Source of the DNA: Pseudoselenomonas ruminantium | Lineage (GTDB): Bacteria; Bacillota; Negativicutes; Selenomonadales; Selenomonadaceae | Direction: 5' to 3' | Assembly: GCA_902785885.1 (NCBI GenBank) | Contig: CADAAS010000004.1 | Span: 1 to 32,151 of the forward strand | Length of the DNA stretch: 32,151 nt | Shown here: positions 15,405-29,400 of the stretch, in pieces | Numbering within the stretch: position 1 is the stretch's first letter | Layout of the letters: every line of letters begins with the position of its first letter | The notes under the pieces: model-generated | What the model saw: only the letters and a program-made list of their open reading frames with translations | What the model was told of the DNA's origin: nothing | Databases searched by the model: none | Program-made: the position numbers and the translations under genes

Positions 15405-16550
15405 TTATTTTTTCTGCATCCAGACCGGGATGTCGATGAAATCGGCGGCCGGTGCTACCGTCTGCTGCGTATCTGCCTGCGCGACCGGGTTCGGCGCAAC
15501 CGGATTCGGCATGCCGAGGTTAAGGCCCGTATTGGGCATAACCGGCTGGGCTGCGGATGGTGCTGCCTGCGGCTGCACACCGATGGTTTCCGGTGCATCA
15601 AAGCCCGTGGCAATAACCGTAACGCGTACCTTGTCGCCCATCGTGTTGTCGATGGATGCACCCCAGATGATGTTGGCCTGGCTGTCGGCTGCATCATGGA
15701 TGGCTTCCGATGCCTCCTGAATCTCATACATGCTGAGATTTTCTTCTGCACCCGTAACGTTGAGCAGGATGCCCCTTGCACCATCGATGCTGGTTTCGAG
15801 CAGCGGGGAAGCGATAGCAGCCTTGGCTGCCTCGATTGCTGCACCCTCGCCGGATGCCTCGCCAATGCCCATCAGGGCAGAGCCGGCATTGCTCATTACG
15901 CTCTGCACATCGGCAAAGTCCAGGTTTACCAGGCCAGGCAGGGCAATCAAGTCAGAAATGCCCTTGACGCCCTGGCGCAGCACGTCATCGGCAATCTGGA
16001 AGGCCTGCGTGATTGGCGTCTTCTTGTCCACGACCTGCATCAGGCGGTCGTTGGGAATGGTGATAATCGTATCCACATGCTGCTTGAGGTTGGCAATGCC
16101 GGATTCGGCGTTGCGTTCGCGCTTCTTCCCTTCAAAGCCAAAGGGCTTCGTCACCACGCCAACGGTCAGCGCGCCGATTTCCCGGGCACACTCGGCAACC
16201 ACCGGTGCTGCACCGGTACCCGTACCGCCGCCCATGCCGGCAGTAACAAAGACCATATCCGCCCCGCGCAGCGCTTCCAAAATATCGTCGCGGCTTTCCT
16301 CGGCCGCTTTCTGTCCGATTTCCGGACGAGCACCTGCACCTAATCCCCTGGTGAGTTTCTCGCCAATCTGCATGCGCTTGGGCGCGAGCGACTTTAAGAG
16401 CGCCTGCGCATCCGTATTCACTGCGATAAATTCGACTCCCTGCAGTCCGAAATTTATCATGCGGTTCACGGCATTGCTGCCGCCGCCGCCTACACCGATT
16501 ACTTTAATCTTGGCCAACTGATCCAGGCCGTTTTCCTCTAGTTCAAACAC
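15405..16550 (-). CDS. ftsZ: Cell division GTPase FtsZ
   Basis: Tubulin-like GTPase that forms the division ring. The sequence shows [17 protein letters not shown] near the N-terminus, the GTP-binding [10 protein letters not shown] loop, the T7-loop NLDFADV region, and the C-terminal peptide [12 protein letters not shown] that binds partner proteins. I choose GTG at 16550, giving [16 protein letters not shown] like many FtsZ proteins; GGGGG lies 8 bases upstream. The ATG at 16565 adds five residues and lacks a ribosome-binding site. A 29-codon ORF with its own good site overlaps this start. ftsA is not upstream; an export island separates ftsZ from ftsQ. Confidence 0.97.
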
Positions 16551-16627
16551 AGCGTTAACCCCCATGATGTTTGTATTCTATATCCTGTGGAAACGGTATT
16601 ACGTCCACATGGATTCCTAACTTGCAC
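16538..16627 (-). CDS. Possible 29-aa leader ORF overlapping the ftsZ start
   Basis: A GTG at 16627 is preceded by a perfect AAGGAG (16640-16635) with 7-base spacing. The frame ([16 protein letters not shown]...) runs 29 codons and stops 13 bases inside ftsZ in another frame. Ribosomes finishing it would be placed at the ftsZ start, which suggests translational coupling. The peptide has no recognisable features, and the ORF may be accidental. Confidence 0.35.
16586..16609. promoter_or_regulatory. Inverted repeat in the ftsZ leader
   Basis: TGTGGA (16586-16591) and TCCACA (16604-16609) are separated by 12 bases. The dyad lies within the putative leader ORF, about 36 bases before the ftsZ GTG, and could be an operator or an mRNA hairpin. 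Confidence 0.35.
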
Positions 16628-16684
16628 AAATATACTCCTTAATTCTATCATTTATCGGCGCATAATGCTATAACTTTCCCAAAA

Positions 16685-16724
16685 AAAATACAAAAAAAGA
16701 AAAGGGAGCCTTTCCTAAGGCTCC
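16685..16724 (-). terminator. Terminator at the end of the small-peptide genes
   Basis: Read on the minus strand: GGAGCCTT, a 4-base loop, AAGGCTCC, then CTTTTCTTTTTTT. It follows the 69-residue peptide gene by 10 bases and separates the peptide genes from ftsZ. Confidence 0.9.
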
Positions 16725-16734
16725 ACTTTCGTCG

Positions 16735-16944
16735 TTATTCCTTTGGTTTAAACGGATTTTTATCCACATTTTGTGCACCTGCTGCAGCGACCCAGTCCAA
16801 TTCCTCGTCGCTGAGTTTTGCCGACTGCCAGCGGCTGTTATGCGGCTGCATCGCCAGCAGCCTGTTCAGCAGCCGCTCCCGCACGGGATGGCAGCTGGAA
16901 AAATCAAACTGCCTGAGTTCCTGCTCCAACAACTTATCATCCAT
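16735..16944 (-). CDS. Small leader-type peptide (69 aa), possible exported peptide
   Basis: I do not recognise the family. The 69-residue protein starts MDDKLLEQELRQFDF, is helical and charged, and contains KLSDEELDWVAAAG at about residues 45-58. That resembles the LSDEELxxVAGG leader motif before double-glycine cleavage sites, here as AAG, leaving a 13-residue core AQNVDKNPFKPKE with no Cys, Ser or Thr. I choose ATG at 16944, with AAGGAG 8 bases upstream; the GTG at 16953 overlaps that site. It has the same promoter motif as the two peptide genes before it. It might instead be a regulator or immunity factor for the system. Confidence 0.65.
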   Translation of the reverse strand: MDDKLLEQELRQFDFSSCHPVRERLLNRLLAMQPHNSRWQSAKLSDEELDWVAAAGAQNVDKNPFKPKE

Positions 16945-16974
16945 GCCAATCACTCCTTCAATTTTTCTTCTTAT

Positions 16975-17005
16975 CCTTTATATCCCGAAACGGGTGAATG
17001 TGTTA
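16975..17005 (-). promoter_or_regulatory. ECF-type promoter before the 69-aa peptide gene
   Basis: Read on the minus strand: TAACAC (17005-17000), 14 bases, GGATATAAAGG (16985-16975). The same two boxes with the same spacing precede the two double-glycine peptide genes. It lies in only 73 bases between genes. Confidence 0.7.
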
Positions 17006-17017
17006 CAGCTATTTTTC

Positions 17018-17347
17018 TTACCTGCCTATACGATAGAGTATTCCATCCGTACGGCTGTTGCGAATGACCTTCGTGCCGTTTTCCGCATCGAATTTTGCCC
17101 AAAACTGATCACGGGTAATGACGTTGCCCTGCTTGTCCGTGTAGATGTTGTCCTTGCTCGGATTGTTATTATCGGTAAAACCGGTATAGCCCAGGCTGCG
17201 CAGTGTCTGACGAACAACTGCAGGGCTGACATAACTCTTGCTCACCAGTCCGCGCTTATAAAGCTCCGAGGCATCGGCCATAGTTTCATAAGACGAACCG
17301 CCGGCTACCCCTTCCAATTCCTGCAGATTCAGCTTTTTATTTTCCAT
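17018..17347 (-). CDS. Double-glycine leader secreted peptide, paralogue 1
   Basis: A 109-residue precursor. The leader MENKKLNLQELEGVAGG ends in a double glycine (residues 16-17), the cut site for C39-peptidase transporters such as the one encoded upstream. The core of about 92 residues starts SSYETMADASELYKRGL and holds the block YTDKQGNVITRDQFWAKFDA followed by ENGTKVIR, shared with the neighbour at 17475. There is no Cys, so disulfides or thioether bridges are not expected. The ATG has GGAGGGGG close upstream. It has its own ECF-type promoter (17379-17409), downstream of a terminator. The core matches no family I know; bacteriocin, signal or surface peptide are all possible. Confidence 0.85.
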   Translation of the reverse strand: MENKKLNLQELEGVAGGSSYETMADASELYKRGLVSKSYVSPAVVRQTLRSLGYTGFTDNNNPSKDNIYTDKQGNVITRDQFWAKFDAENGTKVIRNSRTDGILYRIGR

Positions 17348-17378
17348 GATTTTCCCCCTCCCTTTCTATTGCCTTTGT

Positions 17379-17409
17379 CCTTTATATCCCGGAAGGGGTG
17401 CAAGTGTTA
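17379..17409 (-). promoter_or_regulatory. ECF-type promoter before peptide paralogue 1
   Basis: Read on the minus strand: TAACAC (17409-17404), 14 bases, GGATATAAAGG (17389-17379). It lies just after the terminator of paralogue 2, so each peptide has an independent promoter. Confidence 0.75.
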
Positions 17410-17419
17410 TACGATTTTG

Positions 17420-17454
17420 TAAAAAAAGCCTGCTGACATATTCTGCCGCAGGCT
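17420..17454 (-). terminator. Terminator after peptide paralogue 2
   Basis: Read on the minus strand: AGCCTGC, a 14-base loop, GCAGGCT, then TTTTTTT. It lies 20 bases past the stop codon. Confidence 0.85.
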
Positions 17455-17474
17455 ATCCCTAATTTATCGGTTAT

Positions 17475-17819
17475 TTACACCTTTACCCCAAATGCGTCTT
17501 TTAAGCCATCCAGCTGGCCGCCACGGATGACCTTCGTGCCGTTTTCCGCATCGAAGTTTGCCCAGAACTGCTGACGGGTAATGACGTTGCCCTGCTTGTC
17601 CGTGTAGACATTGCCATTGGCCAGGCCGCCCTTGTCTTCATAACCAGTATAGCCCATGCCATGGAGTTTGTCACGGACAGATGCACAGTCAGCATATTCC
17701 TTGTCGAGCAGGCCGCGCTTATAAAGCTCACTGCTGTCGGCAACGGTTTCGATAATCGTACCGCCGGCTACGCCATTCAGTTCTTCAAGATCCATCTTTT
17801 TGTTTTCGAGATTTGACAT
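17475..17819 (-). CDS. Double-glycine leader secreted peptide, paralogue 2
   Basis: A 114-residue precursor with leader MSNLENKKMDLEELNGVAGG (double glycine at residues 19-20) and a core starting TIIETVADSSELYKRGL. It aligns without gaps to paralogue 1 over the core and is nearly identical in the block YTDKQGNVITR.QFWA.FDAENGTKVIR. The C-terminal 15 residues differ, so the two may act as a pair or have distinct targets. It has a single Cys. I choose ATG at 17819, with AAGGAAG about 6 bases upstream; the longer frame to 17846 has no such site. An ECF-type promoter (17868-17898) and a terminator (17420-17454) make it a single-gene unit. The core family is unknown to me. Confidence 0.85.
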   Translation of the reverse strand: MSNLENKKMDLEELNGVAGGTIIETVADSSELYKRGLLDKEYADCASVRDKLHGMGYTGYEDKGGLANGNVYTDKQGNVITRQQFWANFDAENGTKVIRGGQLDGLKDAFGVKV

Positions 17820-17867
17820 ATAAATCTTCCTTTCCTTGTCGTCCAAGCTTTATCACTTCGGCTTTGT

Positions 17868-17898
17868 TCTTTATATCCGCGAACCAGCCAAAGTGTTA
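17868..17898 (-). promoter_or_regulatory. ECF-type promoter before peptide paralogue 2
   Basis: Read on the minus strand: TAACAC (17898-17893), 14 bases, GGATATAAAGA (17878-17868). It begins only 10 bases past the sigma-factor stop codon. The -35 box also lies in the loop of a weak dyad AGCCA/TGGCT. Confidence 0.75.
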
Positions 17899-17907
17899 TG
17901 GCTTTTT

Positions 17908-18465
17908 TTATTTTTTTTGCAAAATTTTTTTGAGCCGGTCCCGCGCCTGTTTCAACGCTACGCGGACGGAACTTGGCGCCATGCCCAGCTGTTCGGCAAT
18001 CTCCGTGGAATTCATTTCCAGCCAGTAGGCCATCTCCAAAATCTTCTGCTGCCGCTCGGGCAGCTGCAGGATGGCGGCCCGCAATTCCTCGGTGCCTTCC
18101 CGCGTCAAGAACTGTCCTTCAGGCGTCTCCTGACGGTCATCTGCCGGGTCGAAGGACTCCTCCCAGGGAACATGCATTGTATAGGGCTTGCTGCCATAGT
18201 ATTTATTGAGCACATTCTGGGCGATGCGAAAGAGCCAGGTGGAAAAAGCGCCCTTGCCCGGGTCAAACTGTTCCAGATGCTGATACATGCGGATAAAGGT
18301 ATCGCTGACCAGTTCGTCGGCCAGGCTGCTGTCCTTCGTCCTGCCCAGCAGGTATTGGTACACCCGGGGAAAATAATACTCGTATAGTTCCGTAAGGGCT
18401 GCCGGGTCACGGATGGCCCTTGCCGCCAGCGCTCCCCAATAAGCCATGTTTTTGTTTTCACTCAT
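17908..18465 (-). CDS. ECF-type RNA polymerase sigma factor
   Basis: A 185-residue sigma-70 family protein of the extracytoplasmic-function group. Region 2 is visible at about residues 24-90 (LYEYYFPRVYQYLLG, ADELVSDTFIRMYQHLEQFD, AFSTWLFRIAQNVLNKYY), and region 4 at about 133-182 (LPERQQKILEMAYWLEMNST, EIAEQLGMAPSSVRVALKQA). Regions 1.1 and 3 are absent, as in ECF factors. Its ATG overlaps the end of the TolC-like gene by 8 bases, so it is translated with the export operon. It lies just upstream of three small peptide genes with a shared non-housekeeping promoter motif, its likely targets. No anti-sigma factor gene is recognisable nearby. Confidence 0.93.
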   Translation of the reverse strand: MSENKNMAYWGALAARAIRDPAALTELYEYYFPRVYQYLLGRTKDSSLADELVSDTFIRMYQHLEQFDPGKGAFSTWLFRIAQNVLNKYYGSKPYTMHVPWEESFDPADDRQETPEGQFLTREGTEELRAAILQLPERQQKILEMAYWLEMNSTEIAEQLGMAPSSVRVALKQARDRLKKILQKK

Positions 18466-19963
18466 GTTCAGTCTCCGCTAAAGACCCAGAAACATCGGCC
18501 TTCTTCAAGGCCTGCAGGGATGAGGCTCCATCTTCTTCCGCCACCTTGTAGCGCTGGGCATCAAAGGCCACCGGAACCCCTATCGCCTTTTCCAGTTTGG
18601 CCCGGCTGAGGTTGTACTGATAAAGCGCCGTAAGATAGTTGGAACGCGCCTGGGTAAATTTTTCCTGCGCATCCGTTACCGCTAAAAGCACATCCACGCC
18701 TTCCTCATAACGTACCTGCGCGATTACATAGCTGTCCTGTGCCTGCTTGACCGCCCCAGCCGTTTCCGCAATATTCTGCTCGGCCGCCTTCATGCTCAGC
18801 CAGGCACTGCGTGTCTCCAGCTGAATGGTCTTCCTCATCTGCCGCGCCCGGGCTTCATAGGCACGGGTACTCGCATCCGCCTGCCGGACATTTTCGCGGG
18901 TCACGCCGTTGTCAAAGATGTTCCAGGAGATATTCAGGCCCGCCTCCCAGGCATTGCTGCGCTCGCTGCGAAAGGGCGTATTGCCGGCAATGCCCTGCCT
19001 GGCGGATGCAGACACCTGCGGCAGATAGCCGGACTTTGCCGCATCCCGCCGGGCAAGCGCCGCCTTGATATCGTACTCTGCCGCCAGCCCGTCCGGACGA
19101 TGGGCCTGGGCATACGCTTCACAGGCCGGCAAATCCTTGTCATAGGGCTCATAGGTAAAGACATCCAACGGCTCGATATCCATATCCTGCGGCAGCCCCA
19201 CCATGCTGGCCAGCGTGGATTTGGCAATCGATACGGCCGCCTCGGCGTTGACCAGGTTCTGTTTATAGTTGGCAATCGTTACCTTCATCATCAAGAGGTC
19301 GGCTTCGGCTACCGCCCCTTCCTCAAACTGGGCGCGGATGAGTTCGAGCTGCGTATTGCCCTTGTCCACGGCTTCCTGTGCCACCTGCGCAAGATTTTCC
19401 CGATAGATGAGGTCGGCATAGGCCTCTGCCGCCTGATAACGTACCGTCTGCCGGCTGTTTTCCATATCCATGTCGGCCCGGTTCAACTGATAGCGCCCCG
19501 CGGCAATCTGCCCTTCCAGCCGCCCGCCGGTGTAGACCGGCACCGTAAGGCTCCAGCTGTTGGCAAAGGTATTGTGGTAAGCGTAGGAGCCTACGGTTAC
19601 CGGTCCCCCGATAAAAGCCCGCCCCGAGTCAGGATAGGCATAGACCGAATTGTAATTGGCCGCATGCGGGTCGCCATAGGCATCATGGGCATCATTGGCC
19701 GACTTGTAATTCCGCCCGCCGATTTTATACGCCTGGGCACTCCAGCTGACCACCGGCCCCTTGCTGCGTCTGGCTGCCTGCAGCGCATGGTCGGCCGCCT
19801 CTCTTTGGGCATCAGCCGACTCAATGCTCTCATTGCCCGCTAGCGCCATATGGATGCTTTCCGCCAAAGAGAGCCGCACCGGTTCAGCTCCGCAGATTCC
19901 TGCCGGAAAGATAAGGCTATAGCTGAGAATACTGGCTAAAACAAATTTTTTATCAAGCTTCAC
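18458..19963 (-). CDS. TolC-like outer-membrane efflux channel
   Basis: A 501-residue outer-membrane factor forming the exit duct of the export system. The signal peptide (MKLDKKFVLASILSYSLIFP) ends near AGICGA. Two internally similar halves follow with long coiled segments (for example RQTVRYQAAEAYADLIYREN and ETRSAWLSMKAAEQNIAETA), each with the typical exposed beta-strand pair, and GLNISWNIFDNG. This protein implies a diderm envelope. Start GTG at 19963 with AAGGTG 7 bases upstream; it lies 18 bases after the ABC transporter gene. Confidence 0.93.
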   Translation of the reverse strand: MKLDKKFVLASILSYSLIFPAGICGAEPVRLSLAESIHMALAGNESIESADAQREAADHALQAARRSKGPVVSWSAQAYKIGGRNYKSANDAHDAYGDPHAANYNSVYAYPDSGRAFIGGPVTVGSYAYHNTFANSWSLTVPVYTGGRLEGQIAAGRYQLNRADMDMENSRQTVRYQAAEAYADLIYRENLAQVAQEAVDKGNTQLELIRAQFEEGAVAEADLLMMKVTIANYKQNLVNAEAAVSIAKSTLASMVGLPQDMDIEPLDVFTYEPYDKDLPACEAYAQAHRPDGLAAEYDIKAALARRDAAKSGYLPQVSASARQGIAGNTPFRSERSNAWEAGLNISWNIFDNGVTRENVRQADASTRAYEARARQMRKTIQLETRSAWLSMKAAEQNIAETAGAVKQAQDSYVIAQVRYEEGVDVLLAVTDAQEKFTQARSNYLTALYQYNLSRAKLEKAIGVPVAFDAQRYKVAEEDGASSLQALKKADVSGSLAETEHE

Positions 19964-19981
19964 TGGGTATCACCTTCCTGT

Positions 19982-22753
19982 TCAGGCATCTGCTACCTGA
20001 CGTTTCACCAAATCGGCAAAGAGACCGCCCTTTGCCACGAGTTCATCAAAACTGCCCATCTCCGCAATCGCACCATCATCCATGACGATGATGCGGTCAC
20101 ACTTCCGAATCGTCGACAGCCGGTGAGCCACCACAATGCGGGTGGCCTTGAGCTTGTCCAGGCTGCGGGTTACGATAGCCTGTGAACGGTTGTCGAGCGC
20201 ACTGGTCGCTTCGTCAAAGATCAGGATGGCCGGCTTGCCTACCAGGGCGCGGGCAATCAGCAGGCGCTGGCGCTGCCCGCCGGAGATATTGGAGCTGCCC
20301 TCGCTGATTACCGTCTGCATGCCCATGGGCATATCGGCGATATCCTCGGCAATGCCGGCCGCCTCAGCTGCTTCCCAGGCATCATCCTGCGTCAGCATCC
20401 GCGTGCCGACAATGTTGGTGTAGATATCGCCCGTCATCAGCTGGCCATTCTGCAGCACGACGCCCATCTGCGAGCGGACCGACGGCAGCGCCAGTTCGGA
20501 CAAGTCCTGTCCGTCAAAGGTAATGCTGCCCCGCTTGGGCGTTTCAAAGCCCAGCAGCAGGCGCACGAGCGTGCTCTTGCCACTGCCGGACTTGCCGACA
20601 ATGGCCACATTTTCCCCGGCCGCAATGGAGAAGTTCACATCCTTCAGCACATCCGTTCCCTCAGCCTCCAGCACGCCGCCTTTTCCGTCAGGCGTCACAT
20701 GCGTATAGGCAAAGGACAGATGGCTGACCTCAATCGCACCGGACAGTGGTCCTGCCTCCTGCCGGTCATCCGTGTTTTCCGGGACGGCCTCCAAAATCGG
20801 CCGCAAGTTCTCGAGCTGCGGCTGGATGGCAAAATACTGGCTCACGAGGCCGATAACGCCGCCCATCACGCCGTTGAAACTCGAATAGGCGGCATTAAAG
20901 GCGATGAACTGCGCATAGCCAATGCCCGTCTTGACCGCCTTGCCGTCCGGACTGACCTCGTTCATGCCGTAGACCGCAATGTAGTAGAGAATCAGCGTCA
21001 GCACAAAGGGCTGAATGCTCGAGATAATCGACGTATAGTTATTCTGCCAGCGCAGTTTCAACGTCCAGTTCCAATGCTCGCCGAAGGTCTTTGTCCAGAG
21101 GCTGTACGCCTGTTCCTCGGCCCCCTGCACCCGGAACTTGGGCAGGCCCGCAAAAATCTGCTGCACGGTGCCTGCGGATTTATTCCCCGCGTCGATGATC
21201 TTGCGCTGGAAGAACAGCACCCGCCGCAGCACGAACGCCACAAACAGCGAATACACGAGCCAGACCACAATGGCCGCCGCCGTGAGTTTCATGCTGTAGT
21301 AGCACATGAGAAAAATGCTCCAGAAGGAGAAGATAAAACTCAAAATGGAGCTGACGAACTCACCGGAGGCCAGGCCCTTGGCTATGCCGATGCCGCCCAT
21401 GCGGCTGGCCAGTTCCCCCACCGTAAAGCGGCGGAAGAATTTGGCCGGCAGGCTCATGAGCCGCCCCCACATGGCCGCCTCAGCAGCCATCTCGATGCGG
21501 TTGGAGATGCGCAGTACCGCAATGGAACGCACAATTCCCAAAGCCGCCGTAGTAAAGCTCGTGACCATCAGCGCCTGCGTGACCGTTGCCAGCCCCTGCC
21601 GGTCCAAAATCGGAATGATATCCTGGAAGATGGTCTCCGTAATCAGCGGCGTAGCCAGCGGAATCAATCCGGCAAACAGGCTGCAGATTAAAATCGTGCG
21701 ATAATCCGCCAGCCAGCACTGATGAAACATGAATTTAATCAAATCCCATAATTTCAAGGCCCGTGCCGGAAAGCCCGCATAACATTGGAAGGCATCGCGG
21801 CTGACGTTTTGCACCTCCGCCTCCGTCAGGTCAATGCCCTCCGGCTGCGTGGACACGAAAATGCGGTAACTGTCCGGCGTTACCGGAATGAGTGCCGCAA
21901 TGTCCTTGCGCCCCGTATCCGGTGAGGTATAGAAGCCCAGCAGCACACCGGTATCCTTCTTATGCCAATTCTCCGGCAGCGTCACCAGGCGCATCTGCAT
22001 ATTGCCCTTCTGCATCAATCTACGCAAAAGCGTAACCTCATCCACCTTCCGATTGCTCTCCGCATCCAGGCCGATGGAATCCACCGGCATTTTCAAAGCA
22101 GCCGCCACCTGCCGCACGGCAAAGACAGCCTCTTTTAGCAGGGCGCTGTCGCTGTCCGTATCCCGGCTGCCGGCGTACAGCTGCTCCTCGCCCATCAGGC
22201 TGCGGATACCGTTTTCCACCAGCATGACCTTGGCCTTGTCCCGCAGGCGGATGCGGCGGGCCAGCTGCTTGTCCCGGGCACCGAACCGCACCCCTAAAAG
22301 CATGGCAAAGATTTTTTCATGCTGCAAAAATGTTTCATATAATTTCTGATTGCTTTGCTCAGTGACCAGCAACTTGCGCTTTTTCCAAAGCTGCAGCATA
22401 TCATCGCCCCTGTCTGCCAACAGACGGAGCCAGGAAATCTGCACCAGCGAAGAGAACCAAGCCTGCATCTGCCCGCGCAGGTATTCCTTCTCCGCCTCCT
22501 GCCAGCGGCAAAACATCAGTTCACAATCCTCCAGCGCATAAATCTGCATCCGGACCTCCTGAAACTCATCCAGCGCAGGAAAAACGGCCTCGCCGGCCTG
22601 CTTTTCCACCAGATAGCACTGATGGAACGCTATTTCACTGCCATTCTGTGTGGTCGCATAGACTTCCACACGGCCGGACACCACCTGCCAGAAGCCCGTA
22701 TCCTCTTCCAGCAGGAAGCGTTCGCCGGCATAGAGATTTTTTCGCATCGTCAT
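19982..22753 (-). CDS. NHLM-type ABC exporter, ATP-binding/permease (second transporter)
   Basis: A 923-residue fused membrane/ATPase exporter. An unusual N-terminal region (about 1-330) begins like a cyclic-nucleotide-binding fold (YAGERFLLEEDTGFWQVVSG) and has no peptidase motif; this matches the second ATPase of NHLM peptide-export systems. Membrane helices follow from about residue 350 to 650. The ATPase has Walker A IVGKSGSGKST, signature SNISGGQRQRL, Walker B ILIFDEATSALD and the His loop IVVAHRLST. Its ATG overlaps the stop of the C39 transporter gene (ATGA), so the two are probably made together and may form a heterodimer or act in sequence. Confidence 0.92.
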   Translation of the reverse strand: MTMRKNLYAGERFLLEEDTGFWQVVSGRVEVYATTQNGSEIAFHQCYLVEKQAGEAVFPALDEFQEVRMQIYALEDCELMFCRWQEAEKEYLRGQMQAWFSSLVQISWLRLLADRGDDMLQLWKKRKLLVTEQSNQKLYETFLQHEKIFAMLLGVRFGARDKQLARRIRLRDKAKVMLVENGIRSLMGEEQLYAGSRDTDSDSALLKEAVFAVRQVAAALKMPVDSIGLDAESNRKVDEVTLLRRLMQKGNMQMRLVTLPENWHKKDTGVLLGFYTSPDTGRKDIAALIPVTPDSYRIFVSTQPEGIDLTEAEVQNVSRDAFQCYAGFPARALKLWDLIKFMFHQCWLADYRTILICSLFAGLIPLATPLITETIFQDIIPILDRQGLATVTQALMVTSFTTAALGIVRSIAVLRISNRIEMAAEAAMWGRLMSLPAKFFRRFTVGELASRMGGIGIAKGLASGEFVSSILSFIFSFWSIFLMCYYSMKLTAAAIVVWLVYSLFVAFVLRRVLFFQRKIIDAGNKSAGTVQQIFAGLPKFRVQGAEEQAYSLWTKTFGEHWNWTLKLRWQNNYTSIISSIQPFVLTLILYYIAVYGMNEVSPDGKAVKTGIGYAQFIAFNAAYSSFNGVMGGVIGLVSQYFAIQPQLENLRPILEAVPENTDDRQEAGPLSGAIEVSHLSFAYTHVTPDGKGGVLEAEGTDVLKDVNFSIAAGENVAIVGKSGSGKSTLVRLLLGFETPKRGSITFDGQDLSELALPSVRSQMGVVLQNGQLMTGDIYTNIVGTRMLTQDDAWEAAEAAGIAEDIADMPMGMQTVISEGSSNISGGQRQRLLIARALVGKPAILIFDEATSALDNRSQAIVTRSLDKLKATRIVVAHRLSTIRKCDRIIVMDDGAIAEMGSFDELVAKGGLFADLVKRQVADA

Positions 22754-25011
22754 TCCACTCTTTCCCTGTCTTCCTGTTCCCGTTCCTCAATCAGACGGCG
22801 GTACGGGCCGTCATGCTGAATCATTTCCCGATGATTGCCCCGTTCCACAATCTTTCCCCGGGACAGGACAATGATTTCATCACAGTCGCGAATCGTGGAC
22901 AGGCGGTGCGCCACAATCAGGCAGGTGCAGCCCCGATGACGGATATTGTCCAGCACCTTTTTCTCCGTAATGGGGTCAAGGGCACTGGTCGCCTCATCCA
23001 GAACGAGAATCGAAGGATTTACGGCCAAAGCCCGGGCAATTTCAAGCCGCTGCCGCTGCCCACCGGAAAAATTCAGGCCGCCCTCCTGTATAGCGGCTTC
23101 ATAACCGCCATTGAGCTTGACGATATCCTCATGGATGCAGGCATCCTTGGCCGCCTCCACGATATCACTCCGGCGGACGGTACGGTCAAAGAGCGCAATG
23201 TTCTCTGCCACCGTACCGCTGATGAGGAAAATATCCTGGTCCACCGCGGCCAGCGAACTGGTAATCACCTTGCGGGGCACATCCCGGCGGGGCATGCCGT
23301 CCAGCAGCACCTCGCCGCTCCATTCCTCGTAAAGCCCCGTGACAATCTTGGCCAGCGTGCTCTTGCCGCTGCCCGATGCGCCCACCACCGCAATCCAGCG
23401 GCCGGGGCTGGCGTGCAAATCGAAATGCTCCAAAAGCGGCCTTTCCAGCGGGCTGTAGCCAAAGCTCACATCCTTCAGCCGCAAGTCCCCCGCCAGGCTG
23501 TCAAAGGGCACCTTTTTCTGTCCCTCCTCTTCAGGGGCCGGAAAATTCAAACGGTCCACCTCATAAGCGCGCACGTCATTCAGACGCTGCATCTGCATTT
23601 CCGTGGTCTGCAGGGTGGACCCCAGGCCCACCAGGGCATTGACCGGCGCCTGAAAGCTGCCCATCAGATGCTGGAATGCCATGAACATACCAGCCGTCAT
23701 CGCGCCTTCCATAATGGAAAAACCGCCCACGGTCATAATGAGCGCCCCATTGATTCCTGCCAACAAGGTAGGCAGGAGCTTTACCGACATCGCCCATAAC
23801 GCCGTTTCCTGCGAGGCCATCAACACCTTGGTCTGATAGCCCGACCACTTGGTAAAGAAATCCGACTCATCCCCGCTGGCCTTGATGGTCTCAATCATGC
23901 GCAGGCCATTCATCGCCACGCCATAAGCCTTGCCGGCATCCTGCTGAATGCGCATATTGAGGTCGGTAAGGTGCCGCCGCATCGCAAAGAACAAAACGAT
24001 TTCCACGGAGCTGAAGGCCACGCCGATAATCGTCAGGGCCACATTATACTGCAACAGCAGCAGGAGATAGAACACCGCCACAAATAAATCCAGCACCGCC
24101 GTAGCCGCCGGCCCGGACAGGGTAACGGCAATGGACTCATTGAAGCCCACGCGGCCGGCCACTTCCGCCGCATAACGCTGATGAAAGAACTGCATCGGCA
24201 GCTTCAGCAAGTGCCAAAAGTAAGCCGAACTGTCTGCCAAAGTCAGCTTGCGCTGCCACTGCGTGAGCACCACAGCCCGCAGCCAGGTCATGATGCCGCT
24301 CAGAATAAAGGACACCGTCATGGCCAGGCAGAAATTCGTCATCCAGTCCAAATGCTTGCGCGTCAGAATATCATCCAAAAAAATCTGGCTCATCACCGGC
24401 CCGGCCAGCCCGGGAATAATCGCACAAAATTCCAAAATAATGATGAAGGTCAGCGCCCAACGGTCCTGCAGGAGTTTCTTGGCCACATCCTTGAAGACGT
24501 TGTAACGATGGCCGGCCTTTTGAAAGTTTGCCCCCGGCGCAATCTGCAGGGACACTCCGGTATAGGAGGTGCGAAATTCCTCCCAGGGCACCGTACGCCG
24601 CCCCATGGCCGGGTCATTGAGATAGGCCTTGCCCTTGGCGATTCCCTCCAGCACCACAAAATGGTTAAACTCCCAATGGATGATCAAGGGAAAGACATTC
24701 TCCTCACCGGCCAGTTCCAAAAGATCCGCCGCCGACCAGCGGTAGCCGTCCGCCTCACAACCGCGGTTGCGGGCTGCCCGGATTACACAGCTGGCCTTGG
24801 AACCATCGCGGTTTACGCCGCATTCGGCCCGCAGCTTTTCGAGCGGAATCCAGAGCCCGTAATGTGCCAGAATCATGCCCAAAGCCGCCGCGCCGCACTC
24901 CGTGGCCTCCATCTGCAGGACCGTAGGGACCTTGACCCGGTATTTGCTCGATAAAAAGGTATTCTTCAATTGCTCGATAACATTCACCCGGTTCACCTGC
25001 CCCTCAGCCAC
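22750..25011 (-). CDS. NHLM-type peptidase-containing ABC exporter (C39 domain)
   Basis: A 753-residue transporter that removes double-glycine leaders and exports the core peptide. The C39 peptidase has its Cys in QMEATECGAAALGMILAHYG (near residue 39), His in IHWEFNHFVVLEG (near 113) and Asp in LNDPAMGRR (near 130), so it should be active. About six membrane helices follow (170-440), then an ATPase with VVGASGSGKST, LNFSGGQRQRLEIARAL and ILVLDEATSALD. Its substrates are probably the double-glycine peptides at 17018-17819. The start may be GTG at 25011 (overlapping the previous gene by 19 bases) or one of two GTG codons at 24996 and 24987; the site is not decisive. Confidence 0.95.
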   Translation of the reverse strand: MAEGQVNRVNVIEQLKNTFLSSKYRVKVPTVLQMEATECGAAALGMILAHYGLWIPLEKLRAECGVNRDGSKASCVIRAARNRGCEADGYRWSAADLLELAGEENVFPLIIHWEFNHFVVLEGIAKGKAYLNDPAMGRRTVPWEEFRTSYTGVSLQIAPGANFQKAGHRYNVFKDVAKKLLQDRWALTFIIILEFCAIIPGLAGPVMSQIFLDDILTRKHLDWMTNFCLAMTVSFILSGIMTWLRAVVLTQWQRKLTLADSSAYFWHLLKLPMQFFHQRYAAEVAGRVGFNESIAVTLSGPAATAVLDLFVAVFYLLLLLQYNVALTIIGVAFSSVEIVLFFAMRRHLTDLNMRIQQDAGKAYGVAMNGLRMIETIKASGDESDFFTKWSGYQTKVLMASQETALWAMSVKLLPTLLAGINGALIMTVGGFSIMEGAMTAGMFMAFQHLMGSFQAPVNALVGLGSTLQTTEMQMQRLNDVRAYEVDRLNFPAPEEEGQKKVPFDSLAGDLRLKDVSFGYSPLERPLLEHFDLHASPGRWIAVVGASGSGKSTLAKIVTGLYEEWSGEVLLDGMPRRDVPRKVITSSLAAVDQDIFLISGTVAENIALFDRTVRRSDIVEAAKDACIHEDIVKLNGGYEAAIQEGGLNFSGGQRQRLEIARALAVNPSILVLDEATSALDPITEKKVLDNIRHRGCTCLIVAHRLSTIRDCDEIIVLSRGKIVERGNHREMIQHDGPYRRLIEEREQEDRERVE

Positions 25012-25991
25012 TGGCTCAACTTATAGAAGACCTTTTCGATGGGCGGGCGCCGCTCAATGATGATGGAGCCGGTGACAAAGCTGCCGGCCGTAATCGGCTT
25101 GTGCTCCCCGACACTGGATGTCCAGAGATAGCCGGACTCCGACCCCGGGTCACGCACCAAATCAAAATTCACTTCCATCACCGAACTTTGCTGTGTGGAT
25201 ATAATCCACTGGGCCAGCTGTTCATTGCCCAAGTTCTTGTGCATGGTCTGCGGCGTTACGGGATACTGCGACACGGAACGCACCGTGCCCAGAAGGCTGC
25301 CCGACTGGGAAACATCCACGCCGTTTGGTGCCAGCTGGATGGTCTGCCCCTTCTCCACCCGCTTGCCCTTGTCCACGGGGATGTAAAGCACGCCTTTCAG
25401 ATGGCCGCGGCCACCGTCATTGCGCAGCGTGAGAATGGGCATGCCGCTGGTGACCATGCTGCCTTCCTGCACCATGATCTCGTCCACGGTCCCCTCATAA
25501 GGTGAATAAATGTACTCCATGGCCTCCTGCTGATAGCGGCGGGAGTCAAATTCATGGACACGGCTGGCCGCCTCGCGGGAACTTGAGGCCAGCCGCGGGC
25601 CAAACCTGGCCATGCGGGTAGCTGCTTCCTCCTGTACCATCGTCACATGCGCGATAAGTTCCCCTTTCTTGACGACATCGCCGGGATGGACATAGATTTC
25701 ATCCATATTTCCGCCCGCCTGCGCATAGACCTTGGACAGGCCCGAAGAATCCATAATGAGCCCCATGCCGTCAGCCTTGACCGTAAACGAGCCAAAGATG
25801 GACCAGATGACCACGGCCAGCATCATGACCGCCACCGAGATAAGGCCCATCCAGCCAATCGGCGTGGTGATGCTCATGGTCATATCCAGTTTTTCCGGCG
25901 AACGCATCTTGTCCAACGCTTCCTTGCTGAATATCTCATTGCCCTTTTGGTTCCAGCGTGCTGCGCCAGCAGGTTTCTTGTCCTCACCCAT
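24993..25991 (-). CDS. HlyD-like periplasmic adaptor of the NHLM exporter
   Basis: A 332-residue membrane fusion protein. About 55 cytoplasmic residues (including KMRSPEKLDMTMSITTPIGW) precede one membrane helix (ISVAVMMLAVVIWSIFGSF) and a periplasmic part with two lipoyl half-motifs (GNMDEIYVHPGDVVKKGELI and GTVDEIMVQEGSMVTSGMPI) separated by a short helical hairpin. It should link the inner-membrane transporters to the outer-membrane channel. Length and order match the HlyD member of NHLM systems. Its ATG overlaps the preceding stop codon by one base (TGATG). Confidence 0.9.
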   Translation of the reverse strand: MGEDKKPAGAARWNQKGNEIFSKEALDKMRSPEKLDMTMSITTPIGWMGLISVAVMMLAVVIWSIFGSFTVKADGMGLIMDSSGLSKVYAQAGGNMDEIYVHPGDVVKKGELIAHVTMVQEEAATRMARFGPRLASSSREAASRVHEFDSRRYQQEAMEYIYSPYEGTVDEIMVQEGSMVTSGMPILTLRNDGGRGHLKGVLYIPVDKGKRVEKGQTIQLAPNGVDVSQSGSLLGTVRSVSQYPVTPQTMHKNLGNEQLAQWIISTQQSSVMEVNFDLVRDPGSESGYLWTSSVGEHKPITAGSFVTGSIIIERRPPIEKVFYKLSQWLRGR

Positions 25992-27157
25992 CAGTTCTCA
26001 CCCTCTACCTCTGCATCCACTTTCATGCCATCCTCAAGGCCATCCAGATTGCCCACAATGACCGTATCGCCTTCCACCAGGCCATCATAAATCTCGATGT
26101 ACTTTTTATCATCGGCTCCGGCTTTCACCGTCCGCAGATGGATAATGCCCTCTGCATCCAACACAAACACCTTGTCATGTGCCTTGTCAATCATCGCCGC
26201 CAACGGCACGGTCAGCGCCTCATAAGACTGCCCCGTCCGCATGGTCACACCGGTATAAAGCATCGGTTCCAGCAGCCGGGCGCGGTTATCCACTGCCCAG
26301 ACCGTCCGCCGGATATCCGCCGGCTCCGACAAATCGGGCACAATCTCGCGGAGGACAGCCTTTATCTCCATGCCGCGTTCCTTATTGCCCACGCCATAAT
26401 CCGTATCATAAGCCTTGCCCGAAAGTTTCCGTTCCGCAAAGGCCAGATAAATGGCCTGTCCCAACTGTAAATGACGGGCATCCCTATCCGACAGGTTCAG
26501 CGAAAACGTCAGCTGCGAAAAATCCCCGACCAACGCAATCGGCGTGCCCGCCTGCACCTGTGCACCGGCCTGCTGATAGATGAGCAGGACTTCCCCATCC
26601 AGCGGCGCCTTCACCGAGAGCCAGCCCTGCTGAACCAGATACTGGTCGCGCTGCGCCTGCGCCTCCCGCAAAGCCCCCTGCGCTGCCATATACTGTGCCT
26701 CAGCTTCCTCATATTTCTCCTGCGAAGTAGCCCGGCGCGCCTTCAGTCGCCCCTGACGCTGATAGCTGTTGCGCGCCTGCGTCATCATGGCCTCAGCCCG
26801 GCTGATGGAACTTTCCGCCTGCTGAATTTTGAGCGGAATGCTCTCATTGACCATCTCCACCAGGTTCTGCCCCTTGGAAACCTTCTCATTCTTCTCCACC
26901 TGCCAGTTTAAGATACGGCCATCCGTGAGCGCCACAGCATCCGTCATATTATCACTGACAAACCGCACCGCATCCAGCGAAATCGTCGGCGCAAACTCCC
27001 GCCGCGCAGCCTTGGCCGCCGTCACCTCCACACGCCGGTTATCCATCCGATTGGCAATCTGATTCTCATCGCTGTAATTCAGCCACGCCCCCCAAGCCAC
27101 AATAGCCAGTGCCATAAAAATAATCAGCACCATCGCCACGCCATAAATCTTCTTCAT
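25991..27157 (-). CDS. RND/MFP-type periplasmic adaptor, first gene of the export operon
   Basis: A 388-residue membrane fusion protein with an N-terminal membrane anchor (VAMVLIIFMALAIVAWGAWL), a lipoyl half-motif (GRILNWQVEKNEKVSKGQNL), a coiled hairpin rich in Ala, Gln and Glu (about 125-180), the second half-motif (LSVKAPLDGEVLLIYQQAGA) and a C-terminal beta-barrel. It differs from the neighbouring HlyD-type adaptor, so the system has two adaptors. It may form the channel-facing part or serve a different transporter. ATG at 27157 with AGGACGGAG closely upstream. Confidence 0.88.
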   Translation of the reverse strand: MKKIYGVAMVLIIFMALAIVAWGAWLNYSDENQIANRMDNRRVEVTAAKAARREFAPTISLDAVRFVSDNMTDAVALTDGRILNWQVEKNEKVSKGQNLVEMVNESIPLKIQQAESSISRAEAMMTQARNSYQRQGRLKARRATSQEKYEEAEAQYMAAQGALREAQAQRDQYLVQQGWLSVKAPLDGEVLLIYQQAGAQVQAGTPIALVGDFSQLTFSLNLSDRDARHLQLGQAIYLAFAERKLSGKAYDTDYGVGNKERGMEIKAVLREIVPDLSEPADIRRTVWAVDNRARLLEPMLYTGVTMRTGQSYEALTVPLAAMIDKAHDKVFVLDAEGIIHLRTVKAGADDKKYIEIYDGLVEGDTVIVGNLDGLEDGMKVDAEVEGEN

Positions 27158-27305
27158 GCTCCGTCCTGCCCCTTCTCTATCGTCAAACCATATGATTGTA
27201 TACTACACATTTTATTTATTCGCCACAAAATGCCTGAATCCTACCCAAAAATCCGACAAATCCAAAAACAGCCGTCGAACATCTTCACTCCCCACTATAT
27301 ATACA
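27158..27305. other. Upstream region of the export operon
   Basis: A 150-base AT-rich gap. On the minus strand TTGTGG, 17 bases and TAGTAT (around 27196-27225) form a weak promoter candidate. The TAACAC/GGATATAAAG motif of the peptide genes is absent, so the export operon is probably not driven by its own sigma factor from here. Confidence 0.4.
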
Positions 27306-27395
27306 GTAAGCCCGAAGGCTGATGGTGCTTTTCCACAGCTTTTGACAAGCTTGTCTATGGCGAAGGAAAAGTATTATCAGCCTTCGGGCGTCTTA
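27306..27395 (+). repeat. Palindromic repeat R8 (loop type A)
   Basis: Perfect 13-bp arms CCCGAAGGCTGAT (27311-27323) and ATCAGCCTTCGGG (27376-27388), inner CTTTTCC/GGAAAAG. The apical stem loop reads GACAAGCTTGTC, one base different from the usual GACAAGCCTGTC. Confidence 0.88.
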
Positions 27396-27429
27396 TCTTA
27401 TGGATGTTGTCAAGAATCATAAATTACGC

Positions 27430-27519
27430 AGTAAGCCCGCGGGGCTGGTGATGTTTTCCGCAGCTTTTGACAAGCCTGTCTATGGCGTAGGAAAACATTA
27501 CCAGCCCCGCGGGCGTCCT
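27430..27519 (+). repeat. Palindromic repeat R9 (loop type A)
   Basis: Perfect 13-bp arms CCCGCGGGGCTGG (from 27436) and CCAGCCCCGCGGG (to 27513), inner GTTTTCC/GGAAAAC, standard loop. Confidence 0.88.
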
Positions 27520-27550
27520 TATCGCCTGTGAACCCAATCACTAAGAAAAC

Positions 27551-27593
27551 AGCCCGAAAGCTGATGGTGCTTTTCCGTCGCGTTTGACAAGCC
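27551..27593 (+). repeat. Truncated palindromic repeat R10
   Basis: The left half only: CCCGAAAGCTGAT, CTTTTCC and TTTGACAAGCC, then an abrupt join at 27593 to the promoter of the small-RNA cassette. The right half is missing, suggesting insertion of the cassette or a deletion at the apical loop. Confidence 0.7.
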
Positions 27594-27609
27594 GAGCAGT
27601 GGCTTTTCC

Positions 27610-27637
27610 TTGACTTTTTCCGATAAACTGATATAAT
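27610..27637 (+). promoter_or_regulatory. Promoter of small RNA copy 2
   Basis: TTGACT (27610-27615), 16 bases, TATAAT (27632-27637). The RNA would begin near 27645, just before AGGACGAAC. Confidence 0.75.
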
Positions 27638-27644
27638 CAGAATA

Positions 27645-27792
27645 TAAAAAAGGACGAACCACAATGATGGTCGCCCAACACCTTCCGCTTTAGAGATTTG
27701 AGTGGTTAATACCAAACAAATGACCTATCAGACGGCTATCTGATGGTCAACAAAATTCATGATTAAGTCGCCCCGGCTAGGGCGGCTTTTTT
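27645..27792 (+). ncRNA. Candidate structured small RNA, copy 2
   Basis: Second copy of the RNA at 196-338, about 148 bases from promoter to terminator. The blocks AGGACGAACCACAATGATGG, GGTTAATACC and CAGACGGCTATCTG are conserved, while connecting bases and the terminator stem vary in a structure-preserving way. It runs toward an Fst-like ORF on the minus strand (27834-27956), so a toxin mRNA reading on would overlap its 3' end, as in txpA/ratA. An antisense antitoxin role is inferred. Confidence 0.6.
27767..27792 (+). terminator. Rho-independent terminator of small RNA copy 2
   Basis: Stem GTCGCCC (27767-27773) / GGGCGGC (27780-27786) with one T-G pair, followed by TTTTTT. It replaces the AGCCACCT/AGGTGGCT stem of copy 1 with a different paired stem. 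Confidence 0.8.
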
Positions 27793-27833
27793 CATGCTTG
27801 CTACGAATTCTGATCTAGTATTAACCGAAAAAA

Positions 27834-27956
27834 CTATCCAAGAAGCTTAGCCTTTAGCCAAGCATATAAATCTTTGCCGAATTCCGACCAAAAGCCGGAA
27901 AGGATAGGCACCAGAACAAAGGTTCCAATAGCGTACAGCAAAAGCTGATATTCCAC
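27834..27956 (-). CDS. Fst-like hydrophobic peptide (40 aa), candidate type I toxin
   Basis: A 40-codon ORF whose product starts MEYQLLLYAIGTFVLVPILS and continues GFWSEFGKDLYAWLKAKLLG. One membrane helix, a P-x-x-x-G motif and a charged tail with Trp-Leu fit the Fst/Lpt pattern of type I toxins. The paralogous frame at 348-494 differs at 8 of 30 shared codons, 5 silently and 3 conservatively, evidence that the peptide was under selection. The start is uncertain: GTG at 27956 is the first candidate in frame, with no clear ribosome-binding site, which is also common in repressed toxins. A strong promoter (28091-28119) lies about 130 bases upstream. Confidence 0.55.
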   Translation of the reverse strand: MEYQLLLYAIGTFVLVPILSGFWSEFGKDLYAWLKAKLLG

Positions 27957-28030
27957 GGTATAATAAAGGGCAATTACACATCACCCTTTGGAGCTTTGAT
28001 AAAGTGTCGGGAAGCTCGACTAGACTTACT

Positions 28031-28083
28031 TCGACCATCATTGTAAATCATCAATGTGAATACGGAAAATCCGCGTTCGTCCT
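28031..28083 (-). repeat. Inverted partial copy of the small-RNA 5' sequence
   Basis: On the minus strand AGGACGAAC (28083-28075) and ACAATGATGGTCG (28044-28032) repeat the first 23 bases of the convergent small RNA, but with about 30 extra bases between them. The toxin mRNA leader would therefore share its 5' sequence with the opposing small RNA. Confidence 0.6.
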
Positions 28084-28090
28084 CTTGCTG

Positions 28091-28119
28091 AGTATATCAT
28101 AATCATGTATTATCGTCAA
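28091..28119 (-). promoter_or_regulatory. Promoter of the Fst-like peptide mRNA
   Basis: Read on the minus strand: TTGACG (28119-28114), 17 bases, TATACT (28096-28091). Transcription would start near 28084. Confidence 0.7.
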
Positions 28120-28142
28120 AACCATTTGACTGTAAGCAACAT

Positions 28143-28231
28143 CTAAGCCCGCGGGGCTGGTGATGTTTTCCGCAGCTTTTGACCAGCCTGTCTATGGCGA
28201 AGGAAAATATTGCCAGCCCCGCGGGCGTCCT
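28143..28231 (+). repeat. Palindromic repeat R11 (loop type A)
   Basis: Perfect arms CCCGCGGGGCTGG (from 28148) and CCAGCCCCGCGGG (to 28225). One base of the apical stem is changed (GACC instead of GACA). Confidence 0.87.
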
Positions 28232-28259
28232 TATCATCTGCGAACCCAATCGCTACGAA

Positions 28260-28348
28260 AACAGCCCGAAAGCTGATGGTGCTTTTCCGTAGCTTTTGAC
28301 AAGCCTGTCTATGGCGAAGGAAAAGTACTATCAGCTTTCGGGCGTCCT
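28260..28348 (+). repeat. Palindromic repeat R12 (loop type A)
   Basis: Perfect arms CCCGAAAGCTGAT (from 28265) and ATCAGCTTTCGGG (to 28342), inner CTTTTCC/GGAAAAG. Compared with R8, a G-C pair of the arm has become A-T on both sides. Confidence 0.88.
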
Positions 28349-28373
28349 CCCATATGGCACCATCACATACAAA

Positions 28374-28462
28374 AGCAGCCCGGTGACGGATGATGCTTTC
28401 CCGTCGCGTTTGACAAGCCTGTCTAAGCAAAGGGAAAGTATTATCCGTCACCGGGCGTCTTA
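28374..28462 (+). repeat. Palindromic repeat R13 (loop type B)
   Basis: Perfect arms CCCGGTGACGGAT (from 28379) and ATCCGTCACCGGG (to 28455), inner CTTTCCC/GGGAAAG. Confidence 0.88.
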
Positions 28463-28486
28463 CCATATGGCCATCATCAATACGAA

Positions 28487-28574
28487 AGCAGCCCGGTGAC
28501 GGATGATGCTTTCCCGCCGCGTTTGACAAGCCTGTCTAAGCAGAGGGAAAGTTTCATCCGTCACCGGGCGTCTT
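28487..28574 (+). repeat. Palindromic repeat R14 (loop type B)
   Basis: Same arms as R13 (28492 to 28568); the two copies share their flank AAAGCAGCCCGGTGACGGAT and look like a recent tandem duplication. It ends 20 bases before the ftsQ stop codon. Confidence 0.88.
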
Positions 28575-28593
28575 CCCACCTCGATGCAAGCCC

Positions 28594-29400
28594 TTATTGA
28601 GCCCCTTTATTCACCTGTATCTCCGCATCCGTCAGCTGTTCCTTCAGCCGGATAAACGGTGCCGTATAACTAAAGTCCACATACTCAATCTGATGCCGGG
28701 CATGCGGCAAGCTCAGCAGAAAATCACGCGTGAGCTTGGCCTTTTCCTCCCAGCGGTCAAAATTTCCCAGGCGAATCTGCACCGCCTGGTTGGTATAGGC
28801 CATGACCGCATTGGGATTCGTGACATTGACCTCGGACAGGCTGTTCAGCGAATCCGCATCCAGCAGGGACAAAAACTCCAAAATCTTGCCCACATTCGGG
28901 TCCTTGTTGTCATCCCCGATGTACATATCATGCATCTTGACCCCGGCAATCAAGGGAATCGGCATCTTGCGCAAGGACTTATAGCTGCCAATGACCTTTC
29001 CCTGCCGGTCCAGGTCCAGATAACCATAATCACAGGCAACGGTTGCCACCGGCAGCCGCTCCTTGAGCTCGATTTCCAATGTATCGGGCACCCGCCGCCG
29101 CACGACCGCACTTTCAATCCGCAAATCCTTCATAAGGTTCTGCGTCACTTCGTCGGTTTCGAGCTGAAACAATGGTTCGCCCTTATGCAGCCGCCCGCTC
29201 GTGAGGATATCCTCCTCATCCAGATAGGCATTGCCATGCAGGACCACCCGCTGCAGGGTAAAAAGAGGCGAGTACACGATAATGGACATCACCCCGCCGC
29301 AAATCGCCAGGAAAGCCAGCCCCTTCAGCAGGCGGCGGGGACTGCGGCGGCGCCTTCTTGGCGGAACCTGTATGTCTTCCGGTATTTCTCGTTCATCCAT
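28594..29400 (-). CDS. ftsQ: Cell division protein FtsQ/DivIB
   Basis: A 268-residue divisome protein with a basic cytoplasmic tail (PPRRRRRSPRRLLKG), one membrane helix (LAFLAICGGVMSIIVYS, about residues 32-50), a POTRA domain (LQRVVLHGNAYLDEEDI) and the FtsQ region with LEIELKERLPVATV. It links early and late division proteins in the periplasm. I choose ATG at 29400, after AAGGAGG and AAGG; an ATG at 29424 would start directly on its own Shine-Dalgarno. It follows ddl by 44 bases. ftsA does not follow it. Confidence 0.93.
   Translation of the reverse strand: MDEREIPEDIQVPPRRRRRSPRRLLKGLAFLAICGGVMSIIVYSPLFTLQRVVLHGNAYLDEEDILTSGRLHKGEPLFQLETDEVTQNLMKDLRIESAVVRRRVPDTLEIELKERLPVATVACDYGYLDLDRQGKVIGSYKSLRKMPIPLIAGVKMHDMYIGDDNKDPNVGKILEFLSLLDADSLNSLSEVNVTNPNAVMAYTNQAVQIRLGNFDRWEEKAKLTRDFLLSLPHARHQIEYVDFSYTAPFIRLKEQLTDAEIQVNKGAQ

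Follow-up and report, generated by a model that had tools for sequence, protein, structure and literature searches.

The window, a 32,151-nucleotide stretch of a Pseudoselenomonas ruminantium contig, carries an export operon, a sigma factor gene and a group of small genes, all on the minus strand. The operon begins with an RND-type membrane fusion protein (25991–27157; TIGR01730, 169 bits, above cut-off, and assigned also by synteny). It continues with a HlyD-type NHLP secretion protein (24993–25991; TIGR03794, 223 bits), NHLP export ABC transporter subunit 1 with a C39 leader peptidase (22750–25011; TIGR03796, 975 bits; Peptidase_C39), ABC transporter subunit 2 (19982–22753; TIGR03797, 728 bits) and a TolC-like outer-membrane channel (18458–19963; Pfam OEP, 203 bits). 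With the HlyD-type protein and both ABC subunits, one of them bearing the C39 peptidase, scoring above curated cut-offs, the locus encodes an NHLP/NHLM export system. The sigma factor gene (17908–18465) follows directly, its start overlapping the end of the TolC gene by 8 bases, which fits the translational coupling to the export operon proposed in the initial annotation. The order MFP-HlyD-ABC1-ABC2-TolC-sigma-peptides is kept in relatives.

The hallmarks of extracytoplasmic function (ECF) sigma factors are sigma2 and sigma4 domains only, joined by a short linker, an AAC in the −35, a CGT in the −10, an anti-sigma factor and positive autoregulation (PMC8103513). The 185-residue window protein, assigned to clade A of its family (TIGR02937, 109 bits), contains only Sigma70_r2 (residues 27–90) and Sigma70_r4_2 (residues 126–178), with a linker of fewer than 50 residues. 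Among solved structures it lies closest to ECF sigmas, for example RpoE (2q1z). A profile search matched no anti-sigma family among the window genes scanned.

Three small genes lie beyond the sigma factor. The first, pepA (17475–17819), encodes a 114-residue exported peptide with a double-glycine leader (...LEELNGVAGG), and its orthologues in relatives are 67–97% identical. Comparison with Pfam, NCBIfam and PDB sequences and with structures by Foldseek gave nothing that matches it, and its predicted model is weak (pLDDT 61). The second, pepB (17018–17347; 109 residues; ...ELEGVAGG), is a paralogue 62% identical to pepA and was not found at the corresponding place in the two nearest relatives. 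The third gene (16735–16944) encodes a 69-residue member of what we call the FDFS family, which ends in DELDWVAAAG plus a 13-residue tail (...DELDWVAAAGAQNVDKNPFKPKE). The initial annotation treated all three as exported peptides; pepA and pepB have double-glycine leaders, whereas the third is not a double-glycine peptide of the classic kind and represents a conserved family of its own.

At 27309–28578, in the gap separating the export operon from the next gene, the window also holds six or more hairpin repeats, each about 95 nt long. Their stems vary yet stay complementary (for example GCCCGAAGGCTGA..., GCCCGGTGACGGA... and GCCCGCGGGGCTG...) around a common centre, TTTGACAAGCCTGTCTA, and they look like REP/MITE-type elements or structured RNA. 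A small minus-strand ORF among them (about 27835–27985; ...EYQLLLYAIGTFVLVPILSGFWSEFGKDLYAWLKAKLLG) resembles a single-pass membrane peptide, for instance a type I toxin. An Rfam search of positions 16500–28700 gave no match.

A shared motif upstream of the three small genes

The initial annotation had described TAACAC-N14-GGATATAAAGR, with constant boxes and differing spacers, before each small gene. The window indeed contains three such sites on the minus strand, each with zero mismatches, a gap fixed at 14 bases and a spacer of its own. Copy 1 (TAACACTTTGGCTGGTTCGCGGATATAAAGA; 17868–17898) precedes pepA, copy 2 (17379–17409) precedes pepB and copy 3 (16975–17005) precedes the FDFS-family gene. 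Shuffled sequences gave an expectation of 0.05 matches in the window at up to three mismatches, and none of 100 shuffles reached three matches. At the matching position in two further loci (L175 and L176), the equivalents of copy 3 keep both boxes and have altered spacers.

We collected 53 non-redundant sites to describe the anatomy of the motif. A-tracts lie 5′ of the −35, where UP-element subsites would fall, in agreement with an A-rich tract just 5′ of copy 1. The −35, AACACTTT, is followed by a G-rich stretch and then the −10, GGATATAAAG. RACARA is conserved after the −10 and probably marks the start region. The AAC of the −35 is nearly invariant over these sites, and although the search pattern itself accounts for part of the conservation of the boxes, it does not bias the flanking features, and a de novo dyad search recovered the AAC as well.

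ECF-type recognition, as initially proposed, needs correcting at the −10. The −35 contains AAC, but the clade A −10 lacks the usual CGT and contains TATAAA; sister clades B and F have CGTAT, as do a few promoters next to a clade A sigma. Within TAACAC-N14-GGATATAAAG, the TATAAA stands 17 bases behind TAACAC and 18 behind ATAACA. The accompanying statement that there is no housekeeping −35/−10 needs qualifying for this element, but it stands insofar as a scan demanding T at the last −10 position found no strong sigma-70 pair 5′ of the three window genes. We also considered an RNA element formed by CCC/GGG pairing of the spacer with the −10 region and rejected it: the pairing is lost in other genera, where the spacer reads TATCCTCTCAT.

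The motif was further said to be absent before the export operon. In the window this is correct, the best match there having 6 mismatches, but two genomes of another genus carry an exact motif 331 nt (G165) and 351 nt (G164) 5′ of the operon's first gene, an arrangement that would allow positive autoregulation in those genomes.

The motif marks a dispersed set of genes for exported proteins

The source genome has 10 sites at up to one mismatch (nine exact, one with a single mismatch) on seven contigs. Seven lie outside the window; six of these precede genes for peptides with a double-glycine motif, and the remaining one precedes a methyltransferase-like protein with a signal peptide. Most targets are scattered over the genome and do not adjoin the exporter. 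GG before the export cleavage site, as in pepA and pepB (...VAGG), recurs in many peptides of the regulon.

When sites from related genomes were included, an automatic rule placed 41 of 75 before a leader-peptide ORF, and 19 stood before a Sec-type ORF, compared with 5% and 9%, respectively, of random positions in the same loci. The median distance from motif to start codon was 47 nt (quartiles 43–49). Leader-peptide genes typically fall within this range, which is where a core promoter would be expected. The motif also stands beside homologous peptide genes in relatives, as the initial reading had anticipated. The question had been raised whether it always precedes double-glycine peptides; mostly it does, but the FDFS gene and the Sec-type ORFs are preceded by it too. 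The Sec-type targets include a TlpA-like lipoprotein and two families of about 115–119 residues.

These two families occur under the motif in many genomes (for example L065:1032-1379, L066:992-1351 and L068:532-891) and match no family above cut-off; they may serve in immunity or in the envelope. Of the six source-genome sites before double-glycine peptides outside the window, one (L010:1726-1755) directly abuts a peptide that has lost its leader start, probably a decayed gene.

Motif and sigma clade occur together

Relatives of the window sigma factor at E below 1e-30 were confined, among 380 genomes of the class, to the family of the source genome; named relatives are Selenomonas ruminantium MAGs and Anaerovibrio. 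We assigned sigmas at least 54% identical to the window protein to clade A and scanned 189 genomes of the family for the motif at up to one mismatch. As predicted for a motif read by this sigma clade, it was present in 28 of 31 genomes with clade A and in 9 of 158 without, and a reversed-pattern control had one match in all 189. Within the genus of the window, the counts were 12 of 12 genomes with clade A and 1 of 10 without. The association is strong overall (Fisher p 2e-22). Stratification by genus leaves it standing at much weaker significance (p 5e-5), since related genomes do not count as independent cases.

The exceptions take several forms. The three clade A genomes that have no site at this threshold comprise one with a version one nucleotide shorter (G157), one with a three-mismatch version, and G169. 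Some of the nine genomes that have a site and no clade A sigma are incomplete assemblies. One of those without clade A, G008, retains a single site (L079, G008:C18:29200-31100) before a frameshifted regulon gene that is intact in G001, as expected of a gene whose activator was lost. In genus g19, genomes that lack clade A have sites with one mismatch, of the form AGCACTTT...AAAGACTGGATATAAAG (G152:C376:2505, G153:C7:80919 and G156:C66:2691). Since the joint loss of peptides, exporter and sigma would also produce co-occurrence, the weight of the argument rests on the clade-specific promoters described below.

Sister sigma clades have putative promoters of their own

Other clades of the sigma family, 40–51% identical, likewise adjoin NHLP exporters and a member of the FDFS family. 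A de novo dyad search 5′ of double-glycine and FDFS genes returned a different commonest pair, above shuffles, for each of four clades: clade A gave TAACA-N15-GGATA, clade B TGTAA-N17-CGTAT, clade F GTAAC-N16-CGTAT and clade D GTCAG-N14-CGCAT, with clades D and F supplying few sequences. Aligned at TAAY, the promoters of clades A, B and F are equal in spacing and unlike in the −10. FDFS promoters matched their own clade in 11 of 13 cases for A, 7 of 7 for B, 2 of 2 for D and 3 of 3 for F, with almost no crossing; clades C and E have too few members for a judgement.

The clade B promoter, GTAATA-N15-CGTATGT, lies before the FDFS small-ORF family and has about 88 matches, against about 13 for its reversed control. 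Most of them come from genera with clade B sigmas, namely g1, g3 and g22. Several genomes hold both A and B systems, and genomes with two systems (for example G004, G005 and G017) carry both promoter types before paralogous genes, each matching the neighbouring sigma. The gene at 17908–18465 had been called the only sigma gene in view; it is indeed there, but the source genome has a second sigma/exporter pair, with a clade B sigma (L015:637-1183; G000:C3:3649-4173) directly 3′ of its own NHLP ABC transporter, and an FDFS-family gene with a B promoter on contig C237.

Within clade A, G157 carries the motif with a gap one base shorter. In G143 (L116, G143:C134:66000-82000), several peptide genes beside a clade A sigma have an AACACTT-like −35 and a −10 of CGTATAAAG, with one base less between them. 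The G143 promoters appear to be intermediate between the clade A and clade F types, and such intermediates would bridge the atypical −10 of clade A and the CGT common among ECF promoters.

The FDFS family accompanies every clade

A member of the FDFS family accompanies every sigma clade, usually under that sigma's own promoter, and it is the one constant small neighbour of the sigma. The family was found in 92 of the 95 genomes that have the sigma family, compared with 8 of the 94 that do not. The C-terminus of the protein looks like a C39 cleavage site (DELDxVAAAG) followed by a short hydrophilic tail, and its predicted structure is helical, with low confidence. Export can relieve a sigma factor of its inhibitor, as when FlgM is removed by flagellar export. 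By analogy, the FDFS protein could keep its sigma inactive until it is itself cleaved or carried away by the exporter. We offer an export-coupled regulator as a speculative and rather unlikely role for the family; the tail could instead be a signal peptide, and these two are the foremost guesses.

Discussion

Taken together, the data indicate that the motif is very probably a core promoter, read by RNA polymerase with the ECF sigma encoded at the end of the NHLP-type export operon. That this sigma ties peptide expression to the presence of the exporter, as the initial annotation proposed, is well supported by the conservation of the motif, its co-occurrence with the sigma clade and the clade-specific promoters, from which we infer sigma dependence. 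The covariation of promoter with sigma clade is the strongest of these lines, and it would be hard to explain by a housekeeping sigma or by one common transcription factor.

The TATAAA matches five of six positions of a sigma-A −10 and ATAACA four of six of a −35, at 18 bases, so the sites might be strong housekeeping promoters (ATAACA-N18-TATAAA) that spread with duplicated peptide cassettes, the neighbouring sigma being irrelevant. Some peptide promoters do share leader sequence and are clearly recent copies. We nevertheless consider this improbable: ten positions of the −10 region are nearly invariant over the 53 sites, atypical for sigma-A even if partly a bias of the search pattern, paralogous small genes in one cell carry different promoters that match their own sigma clades, and relatives that lack clade A hardly ever have the motif. 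Still less can be said for the three window copies being remnants of local gene duplication with no regulatory meaning. The 62% identity of pepA and pepB, and the lack of pepB at this place in the two nearest relatives, fit such a history, but the third gene is unrelated, the spacers and flanks are unlike, and exact copies are found ahead of unrelated genes, both across seven contigs and in other genera, making the idea extremely unlikely.

The motif could also be the site of some transcription factor or be read by another ECF sigma, as the genome has at least one further close sigma (the clade B protein at G000:C3:3649-4173) and more distant ones. Clade B, however, has its own promoter, and 56 of 62 genomes with only non-A sigmas of the family lack the A motif. 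The core-promoter position, usually 43–49 nt from the start codon, would moreover leave little room for a separate promoter downstream. A different reader therefore seems about as improbable as sigma-A.

Under the favored reading, a promoter recognized by the clade A sigma, polymerase binding and transcription would proceed as follows. The export operon would be transcribed and the sigma made by translation coupled to that of TolC. The sigma would then turn on dispersed genes through the −35 TAACACTT and the −10 GGATATAAAG, whose products would be the double-glycine cargo of the C39 exporter, the FDFS small protein and some envelope proteins that leave by the Sec route. The making of cargo would in this way be tied to the presence of the exporter, and in G164 and G165 the motif before the export operon would add positive feedback.

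Elements of this arrangement have precedents. In streptococci, ComE and BlpR, two-component response regulators induced by a peptide pheromone, control dispersed double-glycine peptide operons. That system shares with ours the dispersed operons, one control site and one C39 exporter, and differs in using a response regulator where a sigma factor appears here. NHLP/NHLM bacteriocin export provides the three components found above cut-offs in the window (TIGR03794, TIGR03796 and TIGR03797). Those models include no sigma, whereas the present operon has an ECF sigma in addition to TolC and a second membrane fusion protein, and its cargo has short double-glycine leaders.

In the microbisporicin lantibiotic cluster of Microbispora corallina, a ribosomal peptide system is under a pathway-specific ECF sigma: the sigma/anti-sigma pair MibX/MibW works with a single consensus, GAACC-N15-GCTAC, with a gap of 15 bases (PMC4973701). 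There the precursor gene mibA is not expressed from the ECF promoter, the targets lie in one cluster and MibW is a dedicated anti-sigma (PMC4973701); in the present system the promoter stands before the peptide genes themselves, which are dispersed over the genome, and no anti-sigma was recognised. AntA of the antimycin clusters is likewise an ECF sigma in a biosynthetic cluster, described as an orphan (PMC3933326); unlike the present case, it belongs to a non-ribosomal depsipeptide cluster of actinomycetes. In the literature searched, whose coverage leaves out most subscription papers, neither this promoter nor an ECF sigma linked to NHLP exporters was described.

The literature searched also held no control mechanism for the NHLP-type exporters of rumen bacteria, which now gain a probable one. 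Searching for the promoter offers a way to find exported peptides in Selenomonas, Anaerovibrio and their relatives, in place of searching for poorly conserved small ORFs. The sigma clades form a natural set of related sigmas whose promoters differ, a resource for work on how promoter specificity shifts and for the design of insulated gene circuits. The conserved FDFS small proteins are a candidate for the missing regulator. If they do act in this way, they would, together with the divergence of the clade promoters, make mutually insulated exporter-sigma-cargo modules within one cell.
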